A DNA stretch of 64,000 bases from NCBI RefSeq assembly GCF_949628265.1, contig NC_088789.1, positions 35,767,883-35,831,882 of the forward strand. Reading direction: 5' to 3'. This document shows, in pieces, positions 1 through 64,000 of this stretch. Numbering within the stretch: the first letter of the stretch is position 1; each line of letters begins with the position of its first letter. The notes beneath the pieces were generated by a model. That model saw only the letters and a list, made by a program, of their open reading frames with translations, had not been told where the DNA came from and did no database searches. This DNA is from Cloeon dipterum. Its lineage: Eukaryota > Arthropoda > Insecta > Ephemeroptera > Baetidae. The position numbers and the translations under genes were made by a program.

Positions 1-3000
1 CCTTTGCTGTCCTTGGCTTTCAAGTCAACCCCAGCTTCGTCCACAAGGAAACGATAAGTTTCCATCTTGTCTTTATATACGCGAAAGCGTTCGAAGTTAT
101 TGCTCGCCAAAATGTGCAGTGCAGTTTCTCCATTATTTGTCGTTTCTTTCACCAGTCGAGGATTAGTTTTGTACAGGAGTTTGACCACTTTCGAATTGTC
201 GCGGTCATTGAAGAAATTGGTGTAGCTGCAGGCGAAGTGCATAGCGTTCCATCCGTCGGCGTCTTTGGCAGCCACGTCGACGCCTTTCGCGATGAACTCG
301 CGGACGAGCTGCAAATGTCCGTGCTGGGCGGCGCAGTGAAGAGCGGTTTTGCCTCGCTCGTCCGATCTCGTCAGGTCGCCTTGCAGCAGCAGGAAGTGGT
401 CGTAGATGAAGTGATCGTCTTCGGTCAAATCTTGTCGCTCTCCGTTCGGAATCAAAGAACTCAGGTCGTCGTCAACTTCTCTCGCCAGCCAGATCACGAA
501 TTCTCCGAATCTACGGTCCACAGCCAGCTGCAAAGGACTCTTTTTCTCCTTTCCTGTCGGGATGTGTTTCAAGGCTGGACTCTTTGAGAGCAGGTACTCA
601 GCTATTTCCTTTTTATTGTAAATGATGGCACAGTGGAAAGCGTTGAAATCGCCATTGTACTCCTTCACTGTCTGAAAAATATTTGCCTCAAGCGTCACCT
701 TATCTCGGGCCAATCTGCTAATTTCTTCCTCCACGAAAAGCTTGACAATATCCAGGTGGCCATATTCCACAGCTACGTTCAAAGGGTCACAAATTTCATT
801 ATCAAAAATGGCTTGTTTGGCGCCGTGTTTTAGGAGAATTTTAACGCATTTGAGTTCCCCCCATGCGCAAGCACAGTAAAGGGTGTATCCATACATAAAA
901 GGTTCTAAAGTATCTTTGCCAAATCCGTTTTCCAGCAACAATTCGAGAATCTCATCGTTATCATTATGAACCGCTGTGCAACCGGCGCCGGCGATGGAAC
1001 TTGATTTTCTGAGCAGCTCGACGAAGTTGGGGAAAGTCTCTTTTAGCTGGTTGAACACGGAGATTGCGTTGTAACGGGCGATTTCTATGAGGACCGCATC
1101 CATGTTTTTTTCCAAGGTTCGTGAATCGATGGCGTTCATTTCCAACAGCTCGGTGAAGATTTCTTCGCTTCTTATCGAATAGACCAGCAATTCAATAGCG
1201 TAATTCACGCAAATGGAAGAACGGTGTTTTATACAACTAGGTATTCTAGCATGATCCTGGAAAAAGGAATAATTTTCCATTTGCTCGTCACAAAAAGTAA
1301 TGTGTGGCTTCAACACTTTAAAAATATGCTTGAGGTTTTCCTCGCAAACTTTTCGCAAAAACGGACCCGATTTAGTTGAAATTGCCTGGGACACGATTAA
1401 TTGCGTGTGAAACTCGATCTCTTCTTCGTTTTCCAAAGTCGAGTAGAAAAGATCGACAAACTTTCTGACCTCTTCCATATCCCATTTGCCAATAAATTCA
1501 AAATCAAAATTGCCTGACTCTTCCACGTTTTTCAAAAACTGTTGGGCAGCAAGGAATTCAGCAAATGTCCGGTGGAGGAAAGTGACCCTTTCTTGCTCCA
1601 CGGTTGCGACTCCATAGTCGTTCATCTTCGCCAAATCTTCTCTCGTCACTCCATCCCCGACAAGCGGCTCGTTATTCATATAGCGAAACGCGATCAACAG
1701 AAGAGGGATCAGTTCTTTGTCAATACTATCGTCTTCCACTTGTTTGCAGCCATATTTCCTCTCCAAACCCTTTTGTACCTTCTTCCTCACCACTTTGTCG
1801 TAAATTTGGAATAAATTTCCTTCGCTGCTGCTCTGAGCAACTAACGACAGGTGCAGCGGGTTAACCAGGATATTGTCCCCGTAATATGGATATATAGAGC
1901 TTCTTGAAAGGCCTATTTGCTTGACGGCATGAAGTACTCTTTTGATTTCTTCCTCGTTCATATCGGTCACAGACTGCAGAAACTCGATTTGCTTTGCTTC
2001 ATCGAATGGCTCTATTTCAACAAGTGTAGCGTTGCCAACCGCTTCCTCGATCACTTTCGCTTCGTGCGGTCTCGTTGCCACGCAGAGTGGAACTCTTTTT
2101 TCTTTCAAAGCCCTCACTATTCCGAGAGCTTTGTCCCTGCTGTGCGGACAAGTTTCGTCGAAACCGTCCAGGAAGACGACTACTTTTTTCTGAGCAATCC
2201 AATTTTTTATGTCTTCAGAGGAATTCCCTGTGGTTTTTGCTAGAAATTCGACTGCATCCACTCGAGGTTTTGTTAATGTTTTAAAGTTTTTATTTAAGGA
2301 GATATTCAAAACTCTCGCGTCTTGATCCGATTTTCCGATTTGGAAAGCGATTTCTTTGAGAACGGTCGTTTTTCCTGCGCCAGCCACCGAACTCAACTGC
2401 CAAACCTGGTTTTCTCGCAACATTTTCGCCTCTCCGATCAGATCCTCGAAGCAAATCTTTTTCCTGTTGTCTCTAAACTTCAAATCGGGTTTTACGAAAG
2501 TCCTCGGCCAGTCGGGAAAATCAAGTAAGTACTGAAGCGTCGAGTTAAGCAGAGTTAACTCTTTTTTAGTTCCAGTTGAAAGCAGTGGCACTAAAAGCTC
2601 TTGCAAACTTCTCCCTTTTTTCAGCTCATCTCCTTTAAAGATTCCGATCAATTGCTCCAGTAAGTCTGCGAAATAAACCGTGTTGGATTAACCATTAAGT
2701 TAAAAAATGAACGAATTGGGCGCTACCTTTGTCCTTCAAAATCATGACAAGCCAGCCGCTGTGGTTCGTTGAGGACACCTCAAATTTGCTCTTTGATGAA
2801 TTGTGCTAAAATCAAACCAAGAATAAAAAATATTGAACAAAAGAGAACAATGGAGCTCACAGAATCGCATTCCTGCGCCTTTTGGTCAACGATGAAAAAG
2901 ATTTTCGGCTTTCCGATCAGTTTGTCATTTTTCGGGCCGATAAATCCGTGTAAAATGTCGGCAATTGGTTTTTCTTCTCCGTTCACAAGCACGCAAACTT

Positions 3001-5074
3001 CTTCTTTTTCGCTCACTTGGCCGAAAATGCAAGTCAAAACGCAGCCGACGTCATGCTCCATCTCGCGAACTACAAAGTCAAACGTTTGCAAGTGTGCATC
3101 TTTTTTGGTTCTTGTAATACTAAACCTTGATTGAAATAAACGTCCAAAGATTCTTTTTTCCACTTCCAAAGTCTTGTATCAAAATCCAAGTTTTGCCGCA
3201 GAGCTTTTTCCGTTTCTTCAACTTCTCTTGTTTGCTGTTCATAAAAGATGAAGGCTCGCCGCCCTCGGATGTTTTGTCCTTCGTCCGACTTCCAAGAGAA
3301 AAATTCAGACGTTGACGTGATTGTTGCTGCTTTTTCCATGCGCGAATCAGTTCTTGAAACAGATGTTGCAGCTATCAATGACCTAGAAACCAATACGTTT
3401 CTTATTTAATTTTTCGAGGATACCAAAATTACCTTGAGAAGGAAAAGCTTGTGTCTGATGAGAACATTTTGACCTCTGGCGTCTGACCAAGATGAAGGTT
3501 TGTTGCGAAGTCTGGTCCGGCGATAGATGCTTTGTGCATTTTGTGCTGGACTGACGTGAGGAATAACAACAAAGGCTTATCCTCGTTGATCTGGCTCAAG
3601 ACATCGCACATGCTGTTCACGAACGAGGAACCGCGTTCACTTGTGTTAGCCATGGTTGCTGAAAGACGATAACTTATAAATGCTATTTATTTAGTGATTT
3701 CCGTGAAATTTTACTCTCGACTGTTGAATAAACGATGACTGTGTTGGGCATTTCAGGAGCCGACGTGATTCGGCAAGAGTTTTTGTTTTCGTAGTCCTTG
3801 TAATCCTTTTTTCGGTCGAATTTTGCGTCGTCTAGATTTCCCCTACACGGCTGTGGAATTTTGCTTTGATTAATTGCATTTTTAGTTATGCTACAGCAAA
3901 CTTACGCCAAAGTTGACAAACTTCAAGCTTTTCTCGAATCCATGCAGTTTTTTCAGGGAGTTGAAAACGTCTTCTGTCGTGAAGGAAATAAAATCACTGA
4001 GTGTCTTGCTCCAGTAATCAGTGTAGATGACTCCATTTTCGTTGCCGTGAGAGAGGAAGTACAGCTCGAAAACCGACGGGATTTTGTCTGAATTGAAATT
4101 AAAATAATTAAAACCGGATGTGACGATTTGTAAATTCGACTATTGCTAACCTTTTGAGGAGAAAAACCGCAAGAGCTTTTCCTGGCTGCCGAGAAGATCG
4201 AGCACAATTTCCTTTTTCGGTCTATAAAGGCTGCGGAAATTACAGTTCCGGTTCTTTCCAAAGGTCGTTTCCAGTTTCTCAACGTCTCGCGCATCACAGT
4301 TTCGTAATTTCGTCGTGTTTTGGAAATCGTAATGGACGACAAGAACGAACACGCTGCAAAGAAAAGTTGATTTAAACTAAATGGCGTTTAATAGATAAGA
4401 AAATTTACTTGTCTGCATTTCCTTTGCCTGATTCGAACTGAAAGAAACCAAGATTCGCTGGACCTTTTGGATGACCTTGAGCCTCACCTGGAAAATGGGT
4501 GATTTGCCGTTAGGTTCAAAATTAGTTAGGAAAAAATTACCTTGTCTTAAAATCTCCTCCATCTCATCCATAGTTTGATGTTTCTCTATCTTCCTTTTCT
4601 GTGAAGTGAATTTTAAATAAATTCCAAATGAAATGGCTAATTCATTTTTAAGAACGGCACTTGTAGCAATTTGAAAAGGCCCGGTTAGTCTTTGAATGTG
4701 GCCGCTTTTTCTGACTTTTTACACCTGAATACTTAAAATACTACTCAGTTCAAAATGATTAAACCCTGGCTCGTTCTTTTCGCTCTTGTAAAAACGTTTT
4801 TCTAACCTTCATTTTTGTGTGTACACATGCTGTCAAACAATGACAATCTTTAATACACACAACAGTCACATCTCATTGTTAGACTATTAAATAATAATAT
4901 TATCAAGAAAAAGGAAAAATTAAAATGGATGAGGATTCATGCAGCCACCGAGTCGATGTGACGTGCGTCGTCATCGAGGGAGATGAATTGGTTTCTGTCC
5001 CTAATTTTGTGTAGGTCGTTCATTGAAACTTACCGTTTTAACGAAAATTAAAATTTCACAGTTACCTTCGCCAT
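1..5074 (-). CDS. Caspase-pseudocaspase-NACHT-ankyrin receptor, copy 1 (3' end outside window)
   Basis: Spliced gene read right to left. Proposed coding exons are 5066-5074 (Met-Ala-Lys), 4541-4598, 4409-4487, 4151-4353, 3906-4087, 3715-3850, 3433-3658, 3126-3382, 2861-3069, 2727-2805 and 2665 down to the window edge. All junctions are GT-AG and the phases agree. Exons 4-7 encode a caspase-like domain with the SHG histidine motif and, straight after a 55-nt intron, the motif PCRG. Exons 8-10 encode a second caspase-like fold without catalytic residues. The last exon holds the NACHT domain and most ankyrin repeats and stays open at the window start; I checked its frame at several indels (9, 3 and 33 bases against copy 3, all multiples of three) but not every codon. 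It is nearly identical to copy 3 and lacks an 11-residue insert that copy 3 has. Family assignment is firm; the exact start codon is inferred. Confidence 0.82.
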
Positions 5075-5590
5075 CTGGATCTGGAGTGAGCCTCTTTCTT
5101 TTGATTCGCGGAAGCTTGCAACACGACAGCCACTCCAAAATTAAAGCTGCAGCTCAATCTGAAAAAAAAACATTCAAAATAGGAGAATTCGTTGTAGAGA
5201 TATAGTTTCTTTTTAGCGAAATTCAACTCCTTTATTGTCGCCGCCGAAGGCAGCGATTTGCCCGAAGCCACAATCGAAAAAAGAGCTTTTGCTCGCATCT
5301 GAAAGGGGAAGTTATGCACGGAGGTTGATAGATCGCCATTAACAACCCCGAAAAACGAATCGATCGAATTTGGAAACAAATCCGCGCCTATTTTGAGGCT
5401 CATTTGGGCTAATTGGGGCCAAAAATTAAAAATTAAAACAGATTTTACGCAGTTTTACCAGCCCGTGGGGCTGGAAGGGTCACACGGGCTTTAATTGGGT
5501 CGATTAAGTATTACCGTTCGATCGGAGTTTGCTCAATCGGACCCATAGGGCCGGAGCTAATATGTTACTGAAGCAAAATTATTAATTTGT
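5075..5590. repeat. 5' flank of receptor copy 1 (duplicated)
   Basis: DNA upstream of the proposed start codon, nearly identical to 43348-43865 upstream of copy 3 and recognisably related to 26160-26815 upstream of copy 2. It should contain the 5'UTR and promoter. A TATATC box lies near 5200 on the minus strand, with a pyrimidine tract and CAG near 5160 that could be an initiator or a 3' splice site. No promoter element is certain. Confidence 0.6.
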
Positions 5591-6900
5591 TGTGAATGAC
5601 GTCACAAACGGCACGCGCCCTGTGTGAGGCGAGAGTGCGACAGAGGAGTTAAGTGCTGTGAACCTACGGCCGGGTTGGTTTCGGTGCACCTGAACCTGAA
5701 CGAGTTGAGGCCCAACCTGCGAACGAATCGACCTTTGACACCTGGTGCACAGGTCGCCGATTTAGGCCACTTGGGCTCCAAACATTTGGGTTTCATTGGT
5801 ACCAAAAAATCAGCAAAATATATATTTTTTTTTGGTTTATTAATGTTGCTAGCGATTTCTGCCAAAAGCAAGTCTATAGAAAAAGCATGTCTTTTTTACC
5901 AAAACTTGTCGGCAGAACGCTTTTTTTGGGGGAAAAATCGAGTCGAACAGACCGTGAGTGCACGCTAGCCCTCGCGCGGTTTTGCCTGCATAAAGTAGCG
6001 GGCTGGGGTTTTCTGGGGGCTAATAGATCACGATTTCCACCCCAAACAACAATGGAAACCAGTTTAAAAAAAAGCTGCGCAGTTATTGATAGCTGTCGTC
6101 GAGGCGCGTTTTTTCCACTCATTTCTGGCACGATTGGGTACGCATAGTGCTACATAAAAAATTAAAAAGTTTTAGCGCGCCCTTATACTTTCCGTGTGAG
6201 CATATTTCGGTGTTATTCGACGCCGAATTTTGTGGCCGAAATTTTCAGTTTTGTTTCGGCCCGATCAAGCCCATAATAGGGCCCAAGCTATTAATTTTCA
6301 AAGTGCACATTTTCCATGTTGAGGGCTGTTCTACCCCGTGATCGAAAGACCATCTCAAGGGCAGTTAGTAGTCCAGGGCGGGGCGGATTTCGACTCGCGG
6401 AGAAAGTCGGTTAAAATCTATCCTTTCCTTGTTAAAAAGCAGGTGCACGCGTCCGCCAAACGTTTGGCTTGAGTTCAGCTCGCATTTTTTTATAAACTGA
6501 ATTTCCGATTTCGATCGGTAAAAGTACTTTTAATTTGATTATTGTTTGCATTTTAATGTTAATCTCAGCCGGCAAGAGCAGCGAGAATCGTGCAAGTGTG
6601 TGTGTGCTTTTCCTCCGGCCGCAAGACCTCGGCTCTGGCCGCATTTTTTACAAATTGAAACGCTGGTTGTGAGCGCGGTCAAGGAATTTTCAACTCGATT
6701 TGTTGACATTTTAAAATTAATTCCAGCCAGCAACAGCAGAGAATCTTGCGCAAAGTGCTTTTAAAGCCGCTTCTAAATTAACGAGGTGGCTGAATCTGAA
6801 ACAATTACTCCACATAGGAGAATTGTTTCTACAAATGTTATTTTGCAATTTACGTCTCCTTTATTTTAAAAATTGAAAGGGGCAGGGTAAGACTTTACTC
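5590..6900. repeat. Rearranged segment shared with 44.1-44.4 kb
   Basis: 5589-5690 matches 44279-44390 in the same orientation, starting with a TGACGTCA palindrome. 5757-5865 matches 44165-44270 in opposite orientation, so one locus underwent a local inversion. The rest, to 6430, is GC-variable DNA with no recognised gene. 6430-6780 carries one copy of a repeat block found also at 10570, 11280, 46220 and 48360 (CAAGAGCAGCGAGAATCGTG). Confidence 0.5.
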
Positions 6901-17053: not shown

Positions 17054-17564
17054 AATTAATTTCCTTTATTTGCATTACACAGCGGTACAAAAATCGAAGC
17101 TTCTCCATTTCTGTCCGCGCATTTACAAATGAGTCTTAAACAACAAAATAATTAATAACAATAAAGAAGAAACATAGTGTTAACATTTCGTTATGTTTGT
17201 GTAACAAGCGAGTGTGTGTGTTTTGCTACATTTGATGCTCTGAAATTGAGATAATCATCATAAGTATAAAATTTGTTAGCATAAACAAAATTCTTTAACT
17301 GCTTTTCGTATTCGTCTAACTGCTGCTCGCCCCGAATCTGCTCAGGAAGTTTATTATACAAATTTAGCATGTAAATTTTTGGATTTCGAGAAGCCGCCGC
17401 TGACACCTGGGAGGGCACAAAATAATTATCTCTGGAGCGAGTGTTGTATCCGTGCACCTCCCTAACTAGCTGAAAATAGTGATGATGACGACGCACAAAT
17501 TTGCAACATTGCAATAGAAATATGGAAAAGACAGGCAACAAATCAAACTTCTCGAACCATGGTT
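17054..17564 (-). mobile_element. Non-LTR retrotransposon 3' fragment
   Basis: This stretch interrupts the 3'-flank module between GACAAAAAGTGTT and TTGCTTTGTAATC, sequences that are contiguous at 34741-34765 and 60961-60985. It is therefore a recent insertion in the copy 2 module only. The minus strand encodes the typical end of a Jockey/CR1-like reverse transcriptase ORF: VHGYNTRSRDN followed by IYMLNLYNKLPEQIR. The fragment is 5'-truncated, the usual outcome of target-primed reverse transcription. Its 3' end carries AATAAA but no long A tract, and I cannot define a target-site duplication. Confidence 0.75.
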
Positions 17565-17616
17565 TTGCTTTGTAATCAATTGCCAGTGTCGCGAACGAAG
17601 CGTCTCTCGCTTTCAA
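17191..17616 (-). pseudogene. Truncated reverse transcriptase ORF (C-terminal end)
   Basis: Frame of 141 residues ending at a natural stop. The first dozen or so residues come from host DNA outside the insertion; the rest matches the C-terminal tail of non-LTR retrotransposon ORF2 proteins, after the polymerase domain, with the H-x-YNTR and N-KLP-x-x-I motifs. The catalytic polymerase domain is missing, so this cannot be an active element. Confidence 0.65.
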
Positions 17617-18160
17617 TCGGGAGAGAGAGCGAGCGCGGAGATGCGGTGTTTGGAATTTTGGATGCTGCAGCAGATGCGAGCCGAATTGCCTCTCGTCTCA
17701 CGAAAAATGAGCAGCGGCAACGCAAATTGGCTTGCTTCGCCTTTCCGCGTCGAGTACTGACGCTTCTGGCCGCAAAGTGCCGCACCGAACACGACCTGAG
17801 ACGAAAAAGAAGAAATATTCGTATAAAGAAAATATGCAAGTTGGAGCAACTCTTCGAGCGAGCCAAAATTAATTCTTAAATGATATTTTCTGTTAGATTA
17901 ATCTAGCTGTGTAGCAATTCATTTAGCCCTCTATAGAAAATAGAGACCTGCAGCGGTTAAATTTTTGCTAATTGCGTTTCGACGACTCTAACCAAACATA
18001 AGTTGCATAAATCGTGCCGGTTGGAAGGCGATTAATCTATAAAAATCGAGAGAGGCCGCACACAAGGAAATAGATTGAATATCGCGACAAACTTATAACT
18101 TCAATATCACAATTTATTTCTTCTTCGAGTTTGAACAATATTATTTAGGTTACGCAAACA

Positions 18161-20675: not shown

Positions 20676-23600
20676 TCATTTAGAGCTACAGGATTCCCAA
20701 TTTTCTCTTATCCTATACCTATAAATTCTGCCTGAATAATCTTCATCTTCTTCACTTAAATGTCCCCAATAACCACGGTCTTTATCATTGGCCACGTCCT
20801 CTGCCGTGAGGCCTTTGCTGTCCCTGGCTTCCAAGTCCACCCCTGCTTCATACACAAGGAAACGGAAAGGTTTTCTGCCTGACCATGTATAACTGTTGGA
20901 AGATAAGCGTTTGAAGTTGTTGTTCACCAAAATGTGCAGTGCAGTTTCTCCTTTATTTGTCGTTTCCTTCACCAGTTGAGGGTTAGTTAGGTGCAGGAGT
21001 TTGACCACTTCTGAATTGTCGTGCCTGTTAATGAAATCGATGAAGGTGCAGGCGAAGTGCAAGGCGTTCCATCCGTTGGCGTCTTTGGCAGTCACGTTGG
21101 CACCTTTCGCGATGAACTCGCGGACGAGTTGCAAATGTCCGTGCTGGGCGGCGCAGTGGAGAAGAGTTTTACCTCGCTCGTCCTTTTCCGTCAGGTCGCC
21201 TCGCAGCAGCAGGAAGTGGTCGTAGATGAAGTGATCGTGTTCGGTCCAACTTTGTGTCTCGCCTCTTGGAATGAAAGAACTCAGGTCATCGCCGATTTCT
21301 CTCGCCAGCCAGAGCACAAATTCTCCGTTTCTGTGGTCCACAGCCAGCTTCAAAGGACTCTTCCCCTCTCCTGTCCTGATGTGTTTCAAATCTGGACTCT
21401 TTGAGAGCAGGTACTCGGCAATTTCCTTTTCTCTGTAATAGACGGCATAATGGAAAGCGTTGAAACCGTCACTTTCCTCGCCAATGAACTCTCGATTGTA
21501 TTGCTTGACCGCATTCTCCTTGTCTGTCTGAAAAATATCTGCCTCAAGCGTCACTTTATCTCGGGGAAAACCGCTAATTTCTTCCTCCACGAAAAGCTTG
21601 ACAATGTCCAGGTGGCCATATTCCACAGCTACGTTCAAAGGGTCACAAATCCTTTGGGGAATGCTAAAGGCTATATCAATGGCTTGTTTGGCGCCGTGTT
21701 TGAGGAGAATTTTAACGTACTTGAGTTTCCCCTCTCTGCAAGCAATGAAAAGGGTGCGTCCATACATAAAATGTTCTAAAAAATCTTTGCCGAATCCGTT
21801 TTCCAGCATCAATTCGAGAATCTCATCGTTATCATAATGAACCGCTATGCAACCGGCGACGTCGCTGATACTTGATTTTCTGAGCAGCTCGACGAAGTTG
21901 GGGAAAGTCTCTTTTAGCTGGTTGAACACGGAGGTTGCGTTGTAACAGGCGATTTCTATGAGTACATCATCCATATTATTTTCCAAGGTTCGTGAATCGA
22001 TGGCGTTCATTTCCAACAGCTCGGTGAAGATTTCTTCGCTTCTTATCGCTTTGACCAGCAATTTAATAGCGTAATTAACGCAAATGGAAGAACGGTGTTT
22101 TGTACAACCAAGTTCTCTATTATCCCGGTAAAAGGAATATTTTTCCATTTGCTCGTCACAAAAAGTAATGTGTGGCTTCAGCACTTTAAAAATATGCTTG
22201 AGGTTTTCCTTGCAAACGTGATTCAGAAACAGAACAGATTTGTTTGAAATTTCCTCGGGCACTTTTATTTGCGTGTAAATCTCGATCTCTTCTTCGTTTT
22301 CCAAAGTCGAGTAGAAAAGATCGACAAACTTTCTGACCTCTTCCCTATACCATTGGCCAATAAATTCAAAATCAAAATTGCCCGACTCTCCCACGTTTTT
22401 CAAAAACTGTTGGGCGGCGAGGAATTCTGCAAATGTCTGGTGGAGGAAAGTGACCTTTTCTTGCTCCACGATTGCGACTCCATAGTTGTTCATCTTCGCC
22501 AAATCCTTTTTCGTCACTTCAGGTCCGACAAGTTCCTCGTTTTTCATGAAGCGGAAAGCGATCAACCGCAGAAGGTTCAGGGCGTTGTCAATCTTCCTCT
22601 GTGCCACTTTATTTCCGTCATTTTCCCTTTCCAAACACAGTTGTACCTTCTTCATCACCACCTTGTCGTAAATTTGGAATAAATTTCCTTCGCCGCTGCA
22701 CTGAGCTACTAACGACAGGTGCAGGGGGTTGACCAGAATCGTGTCCTCATCTCTACGACTTGAAAGGCCTATTTGTTGGACGGCGTGAAGAACTCTCTTG
22801 ATTTCTTCCTCGTTGTTATTGGTCTCTAACCGCAGAAACTCGATTTGCTTTGCTTCGTCGAATGGCTCTATTTCAACAAGTGTAGCGTTTTTAATCGTTG
22901 CCTCGATCACTTTCGCTTCGTGCGGTCTCGTTGCCACGCAGAGTGGAACTCTTTTTTCTTTCAAAGCCCTCAATATTCCGAGAGCTTTGTCCCTGCTGTG
23001 CGGACAAATCTCGTCGAAACCGTCCAGGAAGACGACTACTTTTTTCTGAGCAATCCAATTTTTTATGTCTTCAGAGGAATTCCCTGTGGTTTTGGCTAGA
23101 AATTCGACTGCATCCACTCGAGGTTTTGTTAATGTTTTAAAGTTTTTATTTAATGAGATATTCAAAACTCTCGCGTCTTGATCCGATTTTCCGATTTGGA
23201 AAGCGATTTCTTTGAGAACTGTCGATTTTCCGGCGCCGGCGACCGAACTCAACAGCCAAACCTGGTTTTCTCGCAACATTTTCGCCTCTCCGATCAGATC
23301 CTCGAAGCAAATCTTTTTCCTGTTGCCTCTCACTGTAAGCTTGAAATCTGGTTTCACGAATGTCCTCGGCCAGTCGGGAAAATCAAGTAAGTACTGAAGC
23401 GTCGAGTTTAGCAGAGTTAATTCTTTTTTAGTACCAGTTGTAAGTACTAAAAGCTCTTGCAAACTTCTCCCTTTTTTCAGCTCATCTCCTTTGAAGATTC
23501 CGATCAATTGCTCCAGCAAGTCTGCGAAATAAACCGTGTTGGATTAACCTTTAAGTTAAAAAATGAACTAATTGGGCGCTACCTTTGTCCTTCAAAATCA

Positions 23601-25452
23601 TGACAAGCCAGCCGCTGTGATTCGTTGAAAACACCTCAAATTTGCTCTTTGATGATTTGAGCTAAAATCGAACCAAGATTAAAATTTATAGAATAATAGG
23701 AATTTATAAGGAGCTCACGTTGTCGCTTTCCATCGCCTTTTGGTCAATGATGAAAAATATCTTGGGCTTTCCGATCAATCTGTCATTTTTCGGGCCGATA
23801 AATCCATGCAAAATGTCGGTAATTGGAATTTCTCTTCCGTTCACAAGCACGCAAACTTCTTTTGTCTCTTTGTTTACGCTCACTTGGCCGAAAATGCAAG
23901 TCACAACGCAGCCAACATCATGCTCCATCTTGCTAACTACAAAGTTAAATGCTTAGATAATGCTAAATTTTTGTTCTTGTTATATACCTTGTGTGATATA
24001 CAGTTTCAAAGAATCATCATTCAATTTCCAAAGTCTTGTATCAAAATCCAAGTTCTGCCGCAGAGCTTTTTCCATATCTTGAACTTCTAACGTTTGCCGT
24101 TCGTAAAAGATGAAGGCGCGCCGACCTCTGATATTTTTTCCCTCGCGTGACTTCCAAGGAAAAGATTCAGACGTTGACGTGATTGTTGCTGCTTTTTCCA
24201 TGAGTGAATCATTTCTTGAAACAGGTTTTGCAGCATTCAATGCCCTGGAAACGAACACGATTTTTATTTAATTTTTTGATATAATCTAAATCACCTTGAG
24301 AAGAAAAAACTTGTGTCTAAGGGGAACATTTTGACCTCTGGCGTCTGACCAAGATGAAGGTTTGTTGCGAAGTCAGGTCCAGCGATAGATGCTTTGTGCA
24401 CTTTGTGCTGCACTGACGTGAGGAATAACAACAAAGGCTTATCCTCGTTGATCTGGCTCAAGACATCGCACATGCTGTTCACAAACCACGAACCGCGTTC
24501 ACTTGTGTTAGCCATGGTTGCTGTAACACGAGATCATTGAAATGGTTTATTCTGTAAATAATTTATGAAGTTAAATTTTACTTTCGACTGTTGAATAAAC
24601 GATGACTGTGTTAGGTAAATCAGGAGCCGAATAAGTGATTCGGCAAGAATTTTGGTTGTTGTAGCTCTTGTAATCCTCTTTTCGGTCGAACTTTGCGTCA
24701 TCTAGATTTCCCCTACACGGCTGTTCAATTTTTACTTTTATTATTTCGTCTTGTAGCAATTTCGACCGCAAACTTACGCCAAAGTTGACAAGCTTCAAAC
24801 ATTTCTCAAATCCATCCAGTTTTTTCAGAGAGTTGAAAACGTCTTCTGTCGTGAAGGAAATAAAATCTTTCTGTTGTTCGCTCCAGTGATCAGTGTAGAT
24901 GACTCCATTTTCGTTGCCGTGAGAGAGGAAAAAGAGCACGAAAACCGACGGAATGTCTAAAGGACAATGGAAATTATGAAAACCGGATTTGACGAAATAT
25001 GAATTTAATTATTGCACACCTTTTGAGGAGAAATAACGCAAGAGCTTTTCCTGGCTGCCGAGAAGATCGAGCAAAATTTCCTTTTCTGGTCTATAAAGGT
25101 TGCGGAAATAGCAGTTCCGGTTCTTTCCAAAGGTCGTTTTCAGGTTCTCCACGTCTGGTGCGTCACAGTTTCGAAATTTGTTCCACTTTTCGAAATTGCG
25201 GTAATGGATGAGAAGAACAAACACGCTTTAAAGAAATTACGTTTAAAACGATATGGCTTTTACTAAATAAGAAAATTTACTTGTCTGCGTTTTGTTTTCC
25301 TGATTCAAACTGAAAGAAACCAAGATCCGCTGGACCTCTTGGTCGACCTTGAGCCTCACCTGGAAAATCGGTGATTTGCCGTTAGGTTAGAGACATTTTT
25401 TAGCGAGCTGTAAAAGTTTACCTTGTCTTAAAATCTTTTCCATCTCGTCCAT
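20676..25452 (-). CDS. Caspase-pseudocaspase-NACHT-ankyrin receptor, copy 2 (complete)
   Basis: Proposed coding exons are 25422-25452 (exon extends to 25479), 25281-25359, 25020-25225, 24778-24956, 24582-24720, 24295-24520, 23988-24244, 23719-23936, 23583-23661 and 20676-23521. They sum to 4260 nt, giving 1419 residues plus stop. Residues about 35-245 form a caspase-like domain with SHG at 117-119 and PCRG at 166-169. Residues about 275-467 form a catalytically dead second caspase fold (FGQ in place of SHG, IDQKA in place of QACRG). NACHT follows, with Walker A AGAGKST near 566-572 and Walker B VVVFLDGFDE. Next come the NLR-type FLHQTFAEFLAA motif and ankyrin repeats to the end. The sequence matching the first coding exon of copies 1 and 3 (near 26370) has the donor but no in-frame ATG, so translation probably starts at the Met at 25452 or in an unseen exon. 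Confidence 0.88.
24721..24777 (-). other. 57-nt open-frame intron at the catalytic cysteine, copy 2
   Basis: Same position as in copies 1 and 3, with donor GTAAGT and acceptor TTGAACAG. Here it is 57 nt and has no in-frame stop, so an unspliced mRNA would add 19 residues directly before PCRG while keeping the frame. The conserved donor and the normal caspase spacing after removal favour splicing. Confidence 0.7.
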
Positions 25453-25479
25453 AGTTCGATGCTTAGCTTTCTTCCTTTT

Positions 25480-38095: not shown

Positions 38096-40938
38096 TCATT
38101 CAAAGTCACTGGTTACCAAATTTCCTCTTATCCTAAACCTTCCACTTCTGCCTGAAATATCTTTTTCACTTAAATGTCTCCAATAAGTATCACGGTGTAA
38201 ATCATTGGCCACGTCCTCTGCCGTGCGGCCTTTGCTGTCCCTGGCTTCCAAGTCCACCCCTGCTTCATACACAAGGAAGTGAAAAGTTTTTGTGCCTGAC
38301 CATCTATAACTGCTGGAAGATAAGCGTTCGAAACTGTTGCTCACCAAAATGTGCAGTGCAGTTTCTTCTTTATTTGTCGTTTGCTTCACTAGTCGAGGGT
38401 TAGTTAAGTGCACGAGTCTGACCACTTCTGAATTGTCGTGCCTGTAAATGAAATCGGCGTAGCTGCAGGCGAAGTGCAAGGCGTTCCATCCGTTGGCGTC
38501 TTTGGCAGCCACGTCGGCGCCTTTCGTGATGAACTCGCGGACGAAATGCAAATTTCCGTGCTGAGCGGCCAAGTGGAGAAGGGTTTTGCCTCGCTCGTCC
38601 GTTTCCGTCAGGTCGCCTCGCAGCAGCCGGAAGTGATCGTAGTAGAAGTGATCTTTAAAGGTCCAATCTTGTCGCTCGCCGCTCGGAATGAAAGAACTCA
38701 GGTCGTCGCCGACTTCTCTCGCCAGCCAGACCAGGAACTCTCCGAATCGGCGGTCCACAGCCAGCTGCAAAGGACTCTTTTTCTCCTTTTCTGTCGGGAT
38801 GTGTTTCAAGGCTGGACTTTTTGAGAGCAGGTACTCAGCTATATCCTTTTTTCTGTAAGAGATGGCATGGTGGAAAGCGTTGAAATCGCCATTGTACTCC
38901 TTCACTGTCTGAAAAATATTTGCCTCAAGCGTCACCTCATCTCGGGCCGATCCGCTAATTTCCTCCTCCACGAAAAGCTTGACAATATCCAGGTGGCCGT
39001 ACTTCACAGCTACGTTCAAAGGATCCCAAATTTCATCGTCACAAAAGGCTTGTTTGGCGCCGTGTTTGAGGAGAATTTTAACGCACTTGAGTCTCCCCTC
39101 TTGGCAAGCAAGGTAAAGGGTGCGTCCATACATAAAACGTTTTAAATTATCTTTGCCGAATCCGTTTTCCAGCAACAATTCGAGAATCTCATCGTTATCA
39201 TTAGCTACCGCTGTGAAACCGGCGCCGGCGTTGGAACTTGATTTTCTGAGCAGCTCGACGAAGTTGGGGAAAGTCTCTTTTAGCTGGTTGAACACGGAGA
39301 TTGCGTTGTAACAGGCGATTTCTGTGAGGACTACATTAATGTATTCTTCCAAGGTTCGTGAATCGATGACGTTCATTTTCAACAGCTCCGTGGCGATTTC
39401 TTCGCTTCTTATCGAATAGACCAGCAATGTAATAGCGTAATTCACGCAAATGGAAGAAGAGTGTTTTATACAACCAAGTTCTCCATCATCATCATCCCAG
39501 GGAAGGGAATATTTTTCCATTTGCTCGTCACAAAAAGTAATGTGTGGCTTCAGCACTTTAAAAATATGCTTGAGGTTTTTCTTGCAAACATGAATCAGAA
39601 ACAGAGCAGACTTGTTTGAATTTTCCTCGGGCACTTTTATTTCCGTGGGGAACTCGATCTCTTCCTCCTTTTCCAAAGTCGAGTAGAAAAGATCGACAAA
39701 CTTTCTGACCTCTTCCATATCCCATTTGCCAATAAATTCAAAATCAAAATTGCCTGACTCTTCCACGTTTTTCAAAAACTGTTGGGCGGCGAGGAATTCT
39801 GCAAATGTCTGGTGGAGGAAAGTGACCCTTTCTTGCTCCACGGTTGCGACTCCATAGTCGTTCATCTTCGCCAAATCTTCTCTCGTCACTCCAGGTCCGA
39901 CAAGCGGCTCGTTTTTCATATAGCGAAACGCGATCAACAGAAGAGGGATCAGTTCTTTGTCAATACTATCGTCTTCCACTTGTTTGCAGCCATATTTCCT
40001 CTCCAAACCCTTTTGTACCTTCTTCCTCACCACTTTGTCGTAAATTTGGAATAAATTTCCTTCGCTGCTGCTCTGAGCAACTAACGACAGGTGCAGCGGG
40101 TTGACCAGAATCGTGTTCTGATTTCCACCAGATTTAACCAGGATATTGTCCCCGTAATATGGATATATAGAGCTTCTTGAAAGGCCTATTTGCTTGACGG
40201 CATGAAGTACTCTTTTGATTTCTTCCTCGTTCATATCGGTCACAGACTGCAGAAACTCGATTTGCTTTGCTTCATCGAATGGCTCTATTTCAACAAGTGT
40301 AGCGTTGCCAACCGTTTTCTCGATCACTTTCGCTTCGTGCGGTCTCGTTGCCACGCAGAGTGGAACTCTTTTTTCTTTCAAAGCCCTCACTATTCCGAGA
40401 GCTTTGTCCCTGCTGTGCGGACAAGTTTCGTCGAAACCGTCCAGGAAGACGACTACTTTTTTCTGAGCAATCCAATTTTTTATGTCTTCAGAGGAATTCC
40501 CTGTGGTTTTTGCTAGAAATTCGACTGCATCCACTCGAGGTTTTGTTAATGTTTTAAAGTTTTTATTTAAGGAGATATTCAAAACTCTCGCGTCTTGATC
40601 CGATTTTCCGATTTGGAAAGCGATTTCTTTGAGAACGGTCGTTTTTCCTGCGCCAGCCACCGAACTCAACAGCCAAACCTGGTTTTCTCGCAACATTTTC
40701 GCCTCTCCGATCAGATCCTCGAAGCAAATCTTTTTCCTGTTGTCTCTAAACTTCAAATCTGGTTTTACGAAAGTCCTCGGCCAGTCGGGAAAATCAAGTA
40801 AGTACTGAAGCGTCGAGTTAAGCAGAGTTAACTCTTTTTTAGTTCCAGTTGAAAGCAGTGGCACTAAAAGCTCTTGCAAACTTCTCCCTTTTTTCAGCTC
40901 ATCTCCTTTAAAGATTCCGATCAATTGCTCCAGTAAGT
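38096..40938 (-). other. Single large NACHT plus ankyrin exon of copy 3
   Basis: One uninterrupted exon of 2843 nt carries residues about 480-1426. It has a leader with LLDFPDWPRTF, Walker A AGAGKTT, Walker B VVVFLDGFDE with the acidic pair typical of NACHT, the sensor-like LCVATRPHEA, the winged-helix region and the NLR-type FLHQTFAEFLAA. A helical spacer follows, then ankyrin repeats such as RTLYLACQEGRLKCVKILL, GKTLLHLAAQHGNLHFVREF and GWNALHFACSY. Copies 2 and 3 are almost identical from Walker A to the sensor, but differ often in the spacer and ankyrin part. That gradient fits a conserved switch joined to a diverging recognition surface. Confidence 0.88.
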
Positions 40939-43347
40939 CTGCGAAATAAACCGTGTTGGATTAACCATTAAGTTAAAAAATGAACGAATTGGGCGCTACC
41001 TTTGTCCTTCAAAATCATGACAAGCCAGCCGCTGTGGTTCGTTGAGGACACCTCAAATTGGCTCTTTGATGAATTGTGCTAAAATCGAACCAAGAATAAA
41101 AAATATTGAACAAAAGAGAACAATGGAGCTCACAGAATCGCATTCCTGCGCCTTTTGGTCAACGATGAAAAAGATTTTCGGCTTTCCGATCAGTTTGTCA
41201 TTTTTCGGGCCGATAAATCCGTGTAAAATGTCGGCAATTGGTTTTTCTTCTCCGTTCACAAGCACGCAAACTTCTTCTTTTTCGCTCACTTGGCCGAAAA
41301 TGCAAGTCAAAACGCAGCCGACGTCATGCTCCATCTCGCGAACTACAAAGTCAAACGTTTGCAAGTGTGCATCTTTTTTGGTTCTTGTAATACTAAACCT
41401 TGATTGAAATAAACGTCCAAAGATTCTTTTTTCCACTTCCAAAGTCTTGTATCAAAATCCAAGTTTTGCCGCAGAGCTTTTTCCATTTCTTCAACTTCTC
41501 TTGTTTGCTGTTCATAAAAGATGAAGGCTCGCCGCCCTCGGATGTTTTGTCCTTCGTCCGACTTCCAAGAGAAAAATTCAGACGTTGACGTGATTGTTGC
41601 TGCTTTTTCCATGCGCGAATCAGTTCTTGAAACAGATGTTGCAGCTATCAATGACCTAGAAACCAATACGTTTCTTATTTAATTTTTCGAGGATACCAAA
41701 ATTACCTTGAGAAGGAAAAGCTTGTGTCTGATGAGAACATTTTGACCTCTGGCGTCTGACCAAGATGAAGGTTTGTTGCGAAGTCCGGTCCGGCGATAGA
41801 CGCTTTGTGCATTTTGTGCTGGACTGACGTGAGGAATAACAACAAAGGCTTATCCTCGTTGATCTGGCTCAAGACATCGCACATGCTGTTCACGAACGAG
41901 GAACCGCGTTCACTTGTGTTAGCCATGGTTGCTGAAAGACGATAACTTATAAATGCTATTTATTTAGTGATTTCCGTGAAATTTTACTCTCGACTGTTGA
42001 ATAAACGATGACTGTGTTGGGCATTTCAGGAGCCGACGTGATTCGGCAAGAGTTTTTGTTTTCGTAGTCCTTGTAATCCTTTTTTCGGTCGAATTTTGCG
42101 TCGTCTAGATTTCCCCTACACGGCTGTGGAATTTTGCTTTGATTAATTGCATTTTTAGTTATGCTACAGCAAACTTACGCCAAAGTTGACAAACTTCAAG
42201 CTTTTCTCGAATCCATGCAGTTTTTTCAGGGAGTTGAAAACGTCTTCTGTCGTGAAGGAAATAAAATCACTGAGTGTCTTGCTCCAGTAATCAGTGTAGA
42301 TGACTCCATTTTCGTTGCCGTGAGAGAGGAAGTACAGCTCGAAAACCGACGGGATTTTGTCTGAATTGAAATTAAAATAATTAAAACCGGATGTGACGAT
42401 TTGTAGATTCGATTATTGCTAACCTTTTGAGGAGAAAAACCGCAAGAGCTTTTCCTGGCTGCCGAGAAGATCGAGCACAATTTCCTTTTTCGGTCTATAA
42501 AGGCTGCGGAAATTACAGTTCCGGTTCTTTCCAAAGGTCGTTTCCAGTTTCTCAACGTCTCGCGCATCACAGTTTCGTAATTTCGTCGTGTTTTGGAAAT
42601 CGTAATGGACGACAAGAACGAACACGCTGCAAAGAAAAGTTGATTTAAACTAAATGGCGTTTAATAGATAAGAAAATTTACTTGTCTGCATTTCCTTTGC
42701 CTGATTCGAACTGAAAGAAACCAAGATTCGCTGGACCTTTTGGATGACCTTGAGCCTCACCTGGAAAATGGGTGATTTGCCGTTAGGTTCAAAATTAGTT
42801 AGGAAAAAATTACCTTGTCTTAAAATCTCCTCCATCTCATCCATAGTTTGATGTTTCTCTATCTTCCTTTTCTGTGAAGTGAATTTTAAATAAATTCCAA
42901 ATGAAATGGCTAATTCATTTTTAAGAACGGCACTTGTAGCAATTTGAAAAGGCCCGGTTAGTCTTTGAATGTGGCCGCTTTTTCTGACTTTTTACACCTG
43001 AATACTTAAAATACTACTCAGTTCAAAATGATTAAACCCTGGCTCGTTCTTTTCGCTCTTGTAAAAACGTTTTTCTAACCTTCATTTTTGTGTGTACACA
43101 TGCTGTCAAACAATGACAATCTTTAATACACACAACAGTCACATCTCATTGTTAGACTATTAAATAATAATATTATCAAGAAAAAGGAAAAATTAAAATG
43201 GATGAGGATTCATGCAGCCACCGAGTCGATGTGACGTGCGTCGTCATCGAGGGAGATGAATTGGTTTCTGTCCCTAATTTTGTGTAGGTCGTTCATTGAA
43301 ACTTACCGTTTTAACGAAAATTAAAATTTCACAGTTACCTTCGCCAT
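38096..43347 (-). CDS. Caspase-pseudocaspase-NACHT-ankyrin receptor, copy 3 (complete)
   Basis: Proposed coding exons are 43339-43347, 42814-42871, 42682-42760, 42424-42626, 42179-42360, 41988-42123, 41706-41931, 41399-41655, 41134-41342, 41000-41078 and 38096-40938. They sum to 4281 nt, giving 1426 residues plus stop with all phases consistent. The N-terminus is short and basic (MAKKRKIEKH, NLS-like). Caspase-like domain about 48-298 with catalytic-type His130 in SHG and Cys179 in PCRG. Pseudocaspase about 330-479 with FGQ at 399-401 and VDQKA at 444-448. NACHT Walker A AGAGKTT at 574-580, Walker B at 641-650, FLHQTFAEFLAA at 853-864, ankyrin repeats from about 1070 to the C-terminus. In known NLRs the NACHT ATPase drives oligomerisation; here the fused caspase would be the effector (inference). 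It has an 11-residue insert after DNILV that copy 1 lacks. Confidence 0.9.
41000..41655 (-). other. Caspase-like domain 2 (pseudocaspase) of copy 3 (exons 8-10)
   Basis: Three exons encode a second, shorter caspase fold. IRGRRAFIFYE is the first strand, and VEEMEKALRQNLDFDTRLWK matches the helix and second strand. DVGCVLTCIFGQVS stands where caspases have the strand ending in SHG. IADILHGFIGPKNDKLIGKPKIFFIVDQKA stands where they have the segment ending in QACRG. SKFEVSSTNHSGWLVMILKD resembles a cut-down p10. Both catalytic positions are replaced (Gln for the His region, Lys/Ala for Cys), so it cannot be a Cys-His protease. By analogy with c-FLIP beside caspase-8 it may dimerise with and regulate domain 1 (inference). 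Confidence 0.75.
41706..42626 (-). other. Caspase-like domain 1 of copy 3 (exons 4-7)
   Basis: Four exons encode a p20/p10 caspase fold. First strand NVFVLVVHYDF, then LRNCDARDVEKL, matching the caspase R-x-G-x-D-x-D-x-x-x-L segment that supplies an S1-pocket Arg. Next come YFLSHGNENG with the catalytic-type His and, across an intron, NFG|PCRGN with the catalytic-type Cys. PNTVIVYSTVE matches the start of p10 (caspases: AYSTVPG), and ERGSSFVNSMCDVL matches the helix after it. Two usual S1-pocket residues are missing: the Gln of QACxG is replaced (Gly-Pro before Cys), and the SWR arginine after YST is absent. The dyad suggests possible protease activity; the altered pocket suggests a non-classical P1 preference or loss of activity. 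Confidence 0.8.
42124..42178 (-). other. 55-nt intron at the catalytic cysteine, copy 3
   Basis: The donor GTAAGT follows codons for Asn-Phe-Gly and the acceptor TTCCACAG precedes the codons for Pro-Cys-Arg-Gly. The same intron is at 3851-3905 in copy 1. Its length is not a multiple of three and it contains stops in the reading frame, so retention would cut the protein before the catalytic Cys. Confidence 0.75.
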
Positions 43348-49680: not shown

Positions 49681-51180
49681 TTAAGTTTATTTGAATGTGG
49701 CCTAAATAATTGCGCTTACATAAAATTCATTATTTTACGTCTCAAGTTTAGTTTTTAAATTAGAAATTGATTTTCTTGGGGTACTTTTAATCTCTTAAGA
49801 GATTAAAAGAGAAAATCCTAATGAGGAGCCAATGCCACACAAAGAATATCAAAAGAGCTTTAATATAGTACATTGTTGCCTCAAATTTTTTAAACTTATT
49901 TAGAAACCTGGTGAAAAGTTGAGAATGTGAAACTTTTTTCTTCTTTAGCAAAGATTCTATTTTCAGTAGGTTAATTGGTGAGATAAATTAATTAATTAAT
50001 GGCTGAAATAAGTTCTCAAATTATTTTTTTTCACACAAATTTCCTGTTTTGTAAATAAAACGGTATTAAGGAATCACACAGCTTCGGAAAATATATTTAG
50101 CCACCATTTTTTTCATGTGCAGGAATTTAAAATTTGCTTTTTTTGGTGCTTTCTGATCCGGCAAGTAGTTGAGTAGCGAGTGTTGGAAAACTTAACAAGA
50201 GTGCCGAGTGAAAAAGGTCCGTCCTTTCCTTCTGATTTGGCTGATTTTTTGCTCTGATCGCTTTTGACTTTCGCGTGCGCCTGCCTCCTTATCTCTCTTG
50301 CTTTTTATCGCTGCTCGCGTTTGTCCGTCGAGTGTGCAAACAGAGGCTGCGCGCGAGTGGGCTCTAGCAAAGCAGCTTCTTTCCCTCTCGCGGCGCCTCG
50401 TACAAATAAAAAACACGACCCGGAAAGAACTCGCAGCCACACGCGCGCCCTCTCATTTTTGCAAACCAACTCATGCCTAAAGCTTTTTGCAAATTTGCAA
50501 AACAGGCTTGTAACAAGGCTAAAGAACTCTAATTTTAGCATTTTTATCCATCCACATCTGGCCCTTTTTTGTAATGTATGGCGCACATCACAATTGAGCA
50601 AATAAATATTTCTGTTGACCCACAAACACAATCCTTCTGCATCCAAAACTAAGCTTATACCAATTGAATAATAAAAATCAGCAATAAAAATGTAATTAAA
50701 TTGCCTTTTCTTGTTGCATGTGTGGTTCGAGAGGAAATTAATTAGCTTTGCCTCCGCTCGCACAGACTTCAGCTCTGGTCGCATTTTTTACAAACTCATT
50801 TTTAGCAATTTACACCTCCTTTTACAATAAGAATTGTCGCGAAAGCAATATCAATTGGCGATATTTATTAATTTAAAAATTTTACGCGTCATGGTGACAC
50901 TGTTTAAAAAGTCTTAATTTCGGTAAAACTCGATTAATCTCCAAAATAAATTTTCTTTTCGCTCCGAACTGAATCGGAAAAATTCACCGATGTCGAGAAT
51001 TTAGCTCCTCTACGTTTAAAGGGCGATTAATTATTATTTTCTCACTTACTTTTGATCGCGGCTGCGGCACTCAAAACCCAAACGCTATCAGTGTCTGTCG
51101 ATGAGTGAGAAGTGAGACTTTCAACGCCTGCTGCTCACGAGCATTAATAGTTAGACTTTCGCAGCGAGTTGACGCCACCA
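49680..51180. repeat. Repeat mosaic (blocks A and B)
   Basis: 50280-50420 is a copy of block A and 50930-51180 a copy of block B. Block B is cut off at 51180, where a different sequence begins. No gene supported. Confidence 0.45.
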
Positions 51181-53033: not shown

Positions 53034-53041
53034 TGACGTCA
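53034..53041. promoter_or_regulatory. CRE palindrome TGACGTCA
   Basis: Perfect cAMP-response-element palindrome 168 bases upstream of the EF-Ts-like start codon, in a GC-richer stretch that fits a promoter. The same octamer occurs near 5595 and 44286 in repeat DNA, so it may be incidental. Confidence 0.3.
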
Positions 53042-63528: not shown

Positions 63529-63534
63529 TTTATT
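63529..63534 (-). terminator. Poly(A) signal AATAAA, copy 4
   Basis: AATAAA on the minus strand 71 bases past the early stop of copy 4. It aligns with copies 2 and 3, so the 3' end is conserved although the stop moved upstream. Confidence 0.6.
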
Positions 63535-63604
63535 ATTTTTTCCGTGATAATATATGATATTTCCTTTGATTAACTCATTCAGAGCTACTGGATCCAATTT
63601 TCTC

Positions 63605-64000
63605 TTACCAAACCCCATAAATTCTGCCTGAATTATCTTCATCTTCTTCACTTAAATGTTCCCAATAATCACGGTCTTTATCATTGGCCACGTCCTCTGC
63701 CGTGCGGCCTTTGCTGTCCCTGGCTTCCAAGTCCACCCCTGCTTCATACACAAGGAAACGGAAAGGTTTTCTGCCTGAATATCTATAACTGTAGGAAGAT
63801 AAGCGTTCGAAGTTGTTGTTCACCAAAATGTGCAGTGCAGTTTCTCCTTTATTTGTCGTTTCCTTCACCAGTTGAGGGTTAGTTAAGTGCAGGAGTTTGA
63901 CCACTTCTGAATTGTCGTGCCAGTTAATGAAATCGGTGAAGGTGCAGGCGAAGTGCAAGGCGTTCCATCCTCTGGCGTCTTTGGCAGCCACGTCGGCGCC
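63605..64000 (-). CDS. Caspase-NACHT-ankyrin receptor, copy 4 (C-terminal ankyrin end only)
   Basis: The minus frame is open from the right window edge to a TAA at 63605-63607. It encodes ankyrin repeat sequence closely matching copy 2 (GWNALHFAC, GETALHILVNNN, AGVDLEARDSKG). The protein ends RIYGVW, whereas copy 2 continues for eleven more residues. The DNA after the stop still resembles the longer copy 2 tail, so a small indel brought the stop forward. An AATAAA lies 71-76 bases downstream. Its 5' part lies outside the window, so whether it still has the caspase domains cannot be seen. Confidence 0.85.
   Translation of the reverse strand, partial: GADVAAKDARGWNALHFACTFTDFINWHDNSEVVKLLHLTNPQLVKETTNKGETALHILVNNNFERLSSYSYRYSGRKPFRFLVYEAGVDLEARDSKGRTAEDVANDKDRDYWEHLSEEDEDNSGRIYGVW

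Follow-up and report, generated by a model that had tools for sequence, protein, structure and literature searches.

Tandemly arrayed mayfly genes predicted to combine a caspase, a pseudocaspase, a NACHT ATPase and ankyrin repeats in one polypeptide

Gene copies and domain organization in the window

The window, i.e. the whole 64,000-nucleotide stretch of Cloeon dipterum DNA analysed here, carries three copies of one gene and the end of a further copy (Table 1). An earlier note on this DNA had counted four paralogs; copies 1–3 are indeed present, but copy 4 is represented by only its last ~460 bases, which encode the ankyrin tail. The tandem amplification described in that note was confirmed and had been understated, as the array contains 18 NACHT genes and the family has about 100 copies in the genome. 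The spliced product of copy 3, with GT/AG exon borders, is identical to a database protein of C. dipterum (P0001, LOC135942245), and the splice models proposed for copies 2 and 3 proved to be in frame across 10 and 11 exons, respectively, with GT-AG introns. The exons of copies 1 and 2 were located using a purpose-written spliced aligner that allows GT-AG introns only, and join in frame in ten exons each. The five remaining ORFs in the window with a length of 150 aa or more gave no Pfam match, and the NCBIfam scan added only matches to the ankyrin and NACHT parts below the cut-off and short weak ones.

Table 1. Coordinates of the gene copies, exons and domains in the window
Feature	Position	Strand	Remarks
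Copy 1	9..4598	-	ten exons modelled, short first exon left out; 3' end ~100 bases past left window edge
Copy 1 exons, first five modelled	4598-4541, 4487-4409, 4353-4151, 4087-3906, 3850-3715	-	
Copy 1 exons, last five modelled	3658-3433, 3382-3126, 3069-2861, 2805-2727, 2665-9 and on	-	
Copy 1 stretch near-identical to copy 3	1561..5318	-	exons and introns; 98-100% in 200-base steps
Copy 2	20679..25479	-	ten exons modelled, short first exon left out
Copy 2 exons, first five modelled	25479-25422, 25359-25281, 25225-25020, 24956-24778, 24720-24582	-	
Copy 2 exons, last five modelled	24520-24295, 24244-23988, 23936-23719, 23661-23583, 23521-20679	-	
Copy 3, complete gene	38096..43347	-	RefSeq LOC135942245; 11 exons; 1426 aa
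Copy 3 exons 1-6	43347-43339, 42871-42814, 42760-42682, 42626-42424, 42360-42179, 42123-41988	-	
Copy 3 exons 7-11	41931-41706, 41655-41399, 41342-41134, 41078-41000, 40938-38096	-	
Copy 3 domain 1, caspase p20 + p10	41706..42626	-	exons 4-7
Copy 3 domain 1 catalytic codons	His130 42322-42320; Cys179 42120-42118	-	
Copy 3 domain 2, pseudocaspase	40800..41655	-	exons 8-10 plus the start of exon 11 (~140 bases); approximate at its 3' end
Copy 3 domain 2 residues at the catalytic positions	Phe399 at His position (41298-41296); near Gln446 at Cys position (41157-41155)	-	
Copy 3 NACHT core, Walker A (GAGKT) + Walker B (FLDGFDE)	40247..40660	-	Pfam, motifs
Copy 3 ankyrin repeats, putative sensor	38258..39211	-	Pfam; borders approximate
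Copy 4 tail	63538..64000	-	ankyrin end only; whole model C4:35836256-35831420

By sequence or model, one polypeptide was shown to contain an N-terminal C14A-type caspase with its His and Cys, a second caspase fold lacking them, a NACHT ATPase whose Walker motifs are intact and, at the C-terminus, ankyrin repeats. NACHT is matched in Pfam (E = 1.6e-9), above the cut-off for both copy 2 and copy 3; all 18 of the 18 array copies have the Walker A lysine and Walker B aspartate, which belong to motifs already recognized in the earlier note. The ankyrin repeats that it had also reported were recovered at the C-terminus of copy 3 (Pfam, E = 6.2e-33), while Pfam yielded no LRR family in the exons that encode NACHT and ankyrin in copies 2 and 3. 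With a central NACHT and C-terminal superstructure-forming repeats, the proteins fall, as far as sequence defines it, within the broad NLR/NACHT-type STAND class; ligand-induced oligomerization is predicted for them. N-terminal CARD, PYD, BIR and DED domains are absent from copy 3, in which Pfam detects only Peptidase_C14 in residues 1–297. Lacking LRRs and such N-terminal domains, copy 3 falls outside the stricter, vertebrate-type definition of an NLR.

The two caspase-fold domains

Exons 4–7 of copy 3 match Peptidase_C14 (Pfam, E = 2.7e-14), and a weaker match that is still above the curated cut-off (E = 3.9e-5) extends from exon 8 to the start of exon 11; exons 4–10 thus have the caspase matches that the earlier note had anticipated. 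Both motifs that it had listed, SHG and PCRG, are located in domain 1. The catalytic His and Cys are found in 69 of the 72 family proteins that span both columns (86 aligned) and in all 18 array copies. At two domain 1 positions lie what we take to be the S1-pocket arginines (for Asp at P1); the first is present in 68 of the 72 proteins with a residue at that column, and the second in 50 of 82, being apparently replaced in most array copies in an alignment-dependent manner. The p20 and p10 fold and the catalytic His and Cys support the assignment of domain 1 to the C14A-type caspases, with predicted protease activity.

The catalytic His of domain 2 is missing from every one of the 86 aligned family proteins. 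A profile built from nine domain 2 sequences was compared with the PDB, and the best 60 of its 126 matches were all caspases (best E = 5e-8); for a model of domain 2 of a relative (P0077), caspase fold matches include 3h11 and 3h13. Single domain 2 sequences of other family members gave a Pfam caspase match in 0 of 10 cases. The presence of a second caspase fold devoid of catalytic residues, as originally described, therefore rests on the Pfam match of copy 3, the nine-sequence profile and the modelled fold. A recent duplication of domain 1 was considered as its origin and found to be unsupported: profile–profile alignment of the two domains yielded a probability of 0.1%, which, together with the Pfam result for the other members, indicates that domain 2 is an old divergent copy or an independent caspase.

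Evolution and integrity of the array

The family has undergone lineage-specific expansion in both genera, Cloeon and Neocloeon. Beyond the near-identical stretch shared by copies 1 and 3, their identity drops to 81–94% further 3' (the helical and ankyrin part). The opposite arrangement is seen when L022 is compared with L031 and with copies 2 and 4, with 89–96% identity in the sensor half and 78–84% in the caspases. Judged by these comparisons, the array copies are mosaics. A general rule of a shared effector combined with a private sensor holds for copies 1 and 3 and is reversed in L022; because mosaics occur in both directions and the mean identities across the regions of the array copies are nearly even (84–89%), the rule is unsupported. 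The exon plans of L021 and L032 are more or less broken. The dN/dS ratio is well below 1 for the caspases and NACHT and 0.72 for the ankyrin part, in which dN exceeds dS in 5 of 78 pairs; by this measure, the caspases and NACHT are under more constraint than the ankyrin part. Positive selection on the latter was also considered, but the evidence consists of a raised dN/dS and variable positions, and a ratio still below 1 is no demonstration of it.

As the exons join in frame, a RefSeq model exists, the same fusion is found in Neocloeon and a single open frame at C5:22.15 Mb extends from mid-domain 2 across NACHT to within the ankyrin part, the caspases and NACHT are assigned to one gene, in agreement with the earlier note. 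The older Cloeon annotation splits or fuses certain family genes (P0012 and P0013), but it is extremely unlikely that the caspase exons and the NACHT exon belong to distinct genes mis-joined by gene prediction: all three window copies join in frame, 38 of the 68 listed matches (nine of the 38 from Neocloeon) each cover at least 90% of copy 3, the exon for domain 2 precedes NACHT in the same orientation at 97 of 101 places, and the frame at C5:22.15 Mb unites the second half of domain 2 with NACHT and ankyrin. An array made up mostly of amplified pseudogenes or silent copies is also very improbable. In-frame stops do occur in L023 (one) and L032 (three), but the other 16 of the 18 models are stop-free, and the retention of His and Cys throughout the array and the low dN/dS of the caspases and NACHT argue against decay.

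Proposed function and comparison with known systems

The genes probably encode single-chain NLR-like receptor-proteases that work through a NACHT switch and tethered caspases in immunity, which is the most likely use given that amplification is lineage-specific and the sensor variable. The ankyrin repeats would bind or guard a variable ligand, and ligand binding would free the NACHT switch for nucleotide exchange and oligomerization, so that the tethered caspases could meet in the assembly without a CARD or PYD adaptor. At rest, the pseudocaspase of each chain may act as a built-in c-FLIP-like partner that keeps the caspase latent; in the assembly, it may complete the caspase active site, leading to local cell death or substrate cleavage. 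A relative (P0063) carries BIRs at its C-terminus. We tentatively envisage, with somewhat less than even confidence, a self-contained mayfly inflammasome, in which ~100 receptors have their own initiator caspase and c-FLIP and need no adaptor, and a relative whose two caspases are dead, and to which a pair of BIRs and probably also a RING are fused, brakes the set.

Two other readings keep part of this scheme. The same switch might serve a non-defence role such as allorecognition, developmental cell clearing or symbiont control; the sequence itself does not point to a particular ligand, and fungal NLR genes are reported to act in allorecognition (PMC12881547), but expansions in both genera and a more variable sensor suit pathogen conflict at least equally, and we regard this role as unlikely while giving it appreciable weight. 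Somewhat less probable still is a caspase acting only in cis, which would cut its own chain upon sensing, the freed NACHT-ankyrin part or pseudocaspase being the signal instead of killing via other substrates. Protease and putative substrate do share one chain, and a pattern search found a stretch of 15–24 residues after CRG in 49 of 136 proteins, the printed examples all containing Asp; this stretch, however, varies in sequence, and no conserved cleavage motif was established.

Receptor-proteases of the proposed kind can be compared with several known systems. In the vertebrate proteins NLRC4, NOD2 and NLRP3, NACHT lies mid-chain, LRRs are C-terminal and the caspase is recruited through CARD or PYD. 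These three proteins top the PDB fold matches of the mayfly NACHT part and share with the mayfly proteins a mid-chain switch followed by repeats, whereas the mayfly repeats are ankyrin and the caspase is within the chain. The Apaf-1/CED-4/Dark apoptosome proteins differ in having an N-terminal CARD, a domain absent from residues 1–297 of copy 3 in Pfam. Exon-by-exon CARD and NB-ARC searches returned no Apaf-1/Dark-like gene and at most one CARD; because insects are expected to have some CARD and Apaf-1/Dark-like genes, such searches miss genes.

The presence of an active caspase and a pseudocaspase that share one fold resembles the pairing of caspase-8 with c-FLIP(L), c-FLIP being described in PMC11121540 and the PDB entries 3h11 and 3h13 being among the matches of domain 2; in the mayfly proteins, the pair resides in one chain with the switch and repeats, copy 3 has no Pfam DED and the dimer is putative. 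The earlier note had stressed that a caspase–NACHT fusion is unlike vertebrate NLRs; the fusion as such has a precedent in bacterial metacaspase-NACHT-WD40 proteins (PMC3501461), which likewise combine a caspase-fold protease, NACHT and repeats. The bacterial proteins have a metacaspase and WD40 repeats and are not described there as carrying another, inactive caspase, in contrast to the C14A-like caspase and ankyrin repeats of mayflies. In fungi, NLRs that begin with a protease module (S8, CHAT) control gasdermins (PMC12881547). They thus resemble the mayfly proteins in the N-terminal place of the protease, which is of the CHAT or serine type; the mayfly module is a caspase, and no gasdermin match was obtained here or in the control genomes.

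NACHT is reported to be absent from Drosophila and Caenorhabditis elegans (PMC2575513), which makes ~100 NACHT genes in an insect unexpected. Three protein searches listed 68, 97 and 85 matches, none of which shows the full architecture outside mayflies; those listing 97 and 85 proteins scored only the ~8000 candidates with the most shared words. Among the papers listed by searches of the open-licence PubMed Central literature, none had a title or abstract on mayfly NLRs. The family would provide a natural one-chain system for testing how a caspase is switched on by NLR assembly and which role a pseudocaspase plays, and the published C. dipterum genome (PMC7250882) makes experimental tests feasible. 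The earlier note needs amending in that caspase-free proteins with NACHT followed by ankyrin repeats also occur in a midge (Contarinia LOC116347724) and a tick (Ornithodoros LOC135371357). Both gave no caspase match with Pfam or the mayfly caspase profiles, and their NACHT domains matched the mayfly NACHT profile with E values of 2.7e-21 and 1.3e-23, respectively, among 43 non-mayfly proteins. The tick protein carries SAM_NCD1 at its N-terminus.

Gene models and the fused polypeptide

The window corresponds to C4:35767883-35831882. The spliced product of copy 3, the complete gene, is 1426 aa long and identical over its full length to LOC135942245 of Cloeon dipterum. Using a purpose-written spliced protein-to-DNA aligner, which allows only GT-AG introns and recovered exons 2–11 of copy 3 exactly, ten in-frame exons each were identified in copies 1 and 2. 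The in-frame exon joining that the earlier note had described for copies 2 and 3 was thus reproduced. Of the four paralogs that it had placed in the window, copies 1, 2, and 3 were recovered (copy 1, cut by the left edge, lacks ~100 bases), whereas only the final ~460 bases of copy 4 lie inside. Among the 16 loci modelled besides copies 2 and 3 in the array (the tandem cluster containing these copies), eight have ten exons, six have eleven (one extra short piece), and L021 and L032 have 12 and 16, respectively. With copies 2 and 3 included, 16 of the 18 array models are free of stops; L023 contains one and L032 three. Five intergenic open frames in the window had no Pfam match.

Features with defined coordinates (window positions unless a contig is named)
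Feature	Coordinates	Strand	Description
Copy 3	43347..38096	-	11 exons
Open frame	5662-6147	+	151-168 aa class, intergenic
Open frame	17191-17697	-	151-168 aa class, intergenic
Open frame	28802-29257	-	151-168 aa class, intergenic
Open frame	37104-37589	-	151-168 aa class, intergenic
Open frame	50305-50787	-	151-168 aa class, intergenic
P0063 (LOC135942178; L035)	C4:8632645-8639465		nine exons, exactly reproducing the database protein

The in-frame joins, the RefSeq model, and the near-full-length protein matches (38 of 68 span ≥90% of copy 3, 9 of these 38 being from Neocloeon triangulifer) argue for the caspases and the NACHT-ankyrin part forming one polypeptide. In addition, a single open frame of 1180 codons at C5:22.15 Mb runs from family residue ~392, in the middle of domain 2 (the pseudocaspase), through NACHT into the ankyrin repeats; a portion of this frame may be an unspliced intron, but the border between domain 2 and NACHT is crossed nonetheless. 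The earlier placement of caspase and NACHT in one gene agrees with all of these data. Three predicted proteins of 511–528 aa (P0080, P0082, and P0083) contain the caspase and the domain-2 region without NACHT and are either genuine stand-alone forms or truncated models.

Catalytic residues, constraint, and proposed mechanism

In an alignment of 86 family proteins, many of which come in pairs from one Cloeon gene annotated twice and hence are not independent, the catalytic His and Cys of domain 1 (the N-terminal caspase) are both present in 69 of the 72 proteins covering the two columns; the exceptions are P0041 (Cys to Ser), P0085 (Cys to Phe), and P0063 (His to Tyr and Cys to Phe). Both residues are kept in all 18 array copies. 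In domain 2, the His position is occupied by F, I, L, or Y in all 86 proteins, and none of the 84 with a residue printed at the Cys position has Cys. At the second S1-pocket arginine position, known from caspase-3, R and T occur in 50 and 28 of 82 proteins, respectively, and most of the array has another residue in place of the arginine, in a stretch where the alignment is not firm. Because this arginine is often replaced, cleavage specificity may differ between subfamilies.

Mean dN/dS was calculated for 78 pairs among 13 array copies; the one-stop L023 was included, and L019, L020, L021, L032, and L033, which are broken or diverge furthest, were omitted. NACHT had a mean of 0.34, domains 2 and 1 had 0.40 and 0.42, respectively, and the helical and ankyrin parts had 0.65 and 0.72. 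By this measure, the dead domain 2 is about as constrained as the live domain 1. In descriptive terms, the ankyrin part varies at many positions that the generally known ankyrin consensus would place in loops or at helix ends.

Domain order and domain state are established, as is constraint acting on the two caspase folds. In the mechanism proposed, the ankyrin part would serve as the sensor and NACHT as the switch and assembly module, assembly would bring the caspases together, and the direct caspase-NACHT fusion would make an adaptor unnecessary. The pseudocaspase would complete or restrain its partner in the way c-FLIP(L) acts on caspase-8, with which c-FLIP(L) forms an active heterodimer of altered specificity (accessible text of PMC11121540). 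We consider a receptor-protease of this kind fairly likely; a built-in caspase-pseudocaspase dimer we rate as less likely than not.

Family size and probable exchange among copies

Pfam NACHT matches at least 101 places in the 190-Mb genome, and 97 of these 101 have a domain-2 exon ≤6 kb upstream on the same strand; nearly all NACHT places found in C. dipterum are therefore members of this one family. The domain-2 exon peptide itself matches 119 places (111 without eight rows matching only the next short exon). The NACHT places are concentrated at C4:29.2–36.05 Mb (45) and C2:0.79–4.7 Mb (30), and the array, with 18, lies at C4:35.60–36.05 Mb, ≤0.4 Mb from the contig end. At C3:8.347–8.632 Mb, nine domain-2 exon matches have no paired Pfam NACHT match; these may be divergent family members because a weak match to copy 3 NACHT residues 642–710 lies nearby in the part read as L038. 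Exon-by-exon searches of the whole genome found CARD at one place and NB-ARC at two, both of which are NACHT places; since an Apaf-1-like Dark and CARD caspases are expected in insects, such searches evidently miss genes.

In a tree of 48 selected proteins (29 Cloeon and 19 Neocloeon), rows cluster by genus (2 changes versus 15 in shuffles). The Neocloeon rows form clades of 10 and 8, and the remaining one pairs with a Cloeon row below the support mark. Thus, a few genes probably predate the split, each genus having had its own expansion.

Copies 1 and 3, 38 kb apart, share 98–100% identity per 200-base step between window positions 5318 and 1561, with introns counted, versus 81–94% beyond 1561 toward the 3′ end; codon identity is 98.6–100% through residue 800 and 80–91% thereafter. 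Such a pattern is expected from gene conversion, or from a recent duplication with later exchange. High effector identity with a divergent sensor was rejected as an array-wide rule, L022 showing the opposite: compared with L031 and copies 2 and 4, it has 89–96% identity in the sensor half and 78–84% in the caspases. Across eight regions and all 78 pairs, mean identity is 84–89%. Module exchange in both directions fits best.

Relatives, likely origin, and BIR-containing genes

Among the matches listed by three protein searches (68, 97, and 85 proteins, the latter two scoring only ~8000 candidates sharing most words), the full architecture occurs only in Cloeon and Neocloeon. NACHT-ankyrin proteins of the midge Contarinia nasturtii (P0088) and the tick Ornithodoros turicata (P0090) match the mayfly NACHT profile, with no match to the mayfly caspase profiles and no Pfam caspase. 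Arthropods may have NACHT receptors more often than has been supposed. P0090 carries SAM_NCD1 at its N-terminus. Fish caspase-8 (P0134) matches both mayfly caspase profiles (E 4.3e-12 and 3.1e-6; set of 43 proteins). A likely origin is the fusion, within the mayfly lineage, of a caspase pair onto an arthropod NACHT-ankyrin gene.

In the accessible portions of the cited papers, bacteria have direct caspase-NACHT-repeat fusions (PMC3501461), fungi have NLRs headed by proteases (PMC12881547), and amphioxus has caspases joined directly to LRR or TNFR domains (PMC2575513). No animal caspase-NACHT protein is described in the accessible parts of the papers covered on animal NLRs and apoptosis, the article on the Cloeon genome (PMC7250882) does not use the words caspase, NLR, or ankyrin in its main text (word search), and no mayfly NLR of this kind appears among the literature matches listed, which cover open-licence PubMed Central papers. 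The gene models are already in databases under labels such as ‘uncharacterized protein’ or ‘NACHT domain-containing protein’. What would be new is an NLR-like receptor with an attached caspase and pseudocaspase as effector; caspase-NACHT and protease-headed fusions are already known.

In P0063, both caspase folds are dead in the family alignment, and the C-terminus carries a pair of BIR domains plus a RING-like finger (E 1.6e-4 for RING, short of its cut-off). This fusion is no annotation error because NACHT, ankyrin, BIRs, and finger share the last exon of 3845 bases. P0063 resembles NAIP in parts and, by analogy with IAPs, could at a guess act as a built-in brake on active family members. 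At L037 (C1:20.965–20.970 Mb), a BIR frame ~1.7 kb upstream of a divergent caspase-pseudocaspase-NACHT gene on the same strand represents either another case of BIR association or an adjacent gene. The genome contains 102 BIR matches in total, and IAP-like BIR frames are dense on both strands at C3:7.77–7.88 Mb, a cluster suggesting that caspase inhibitors were amplified too.
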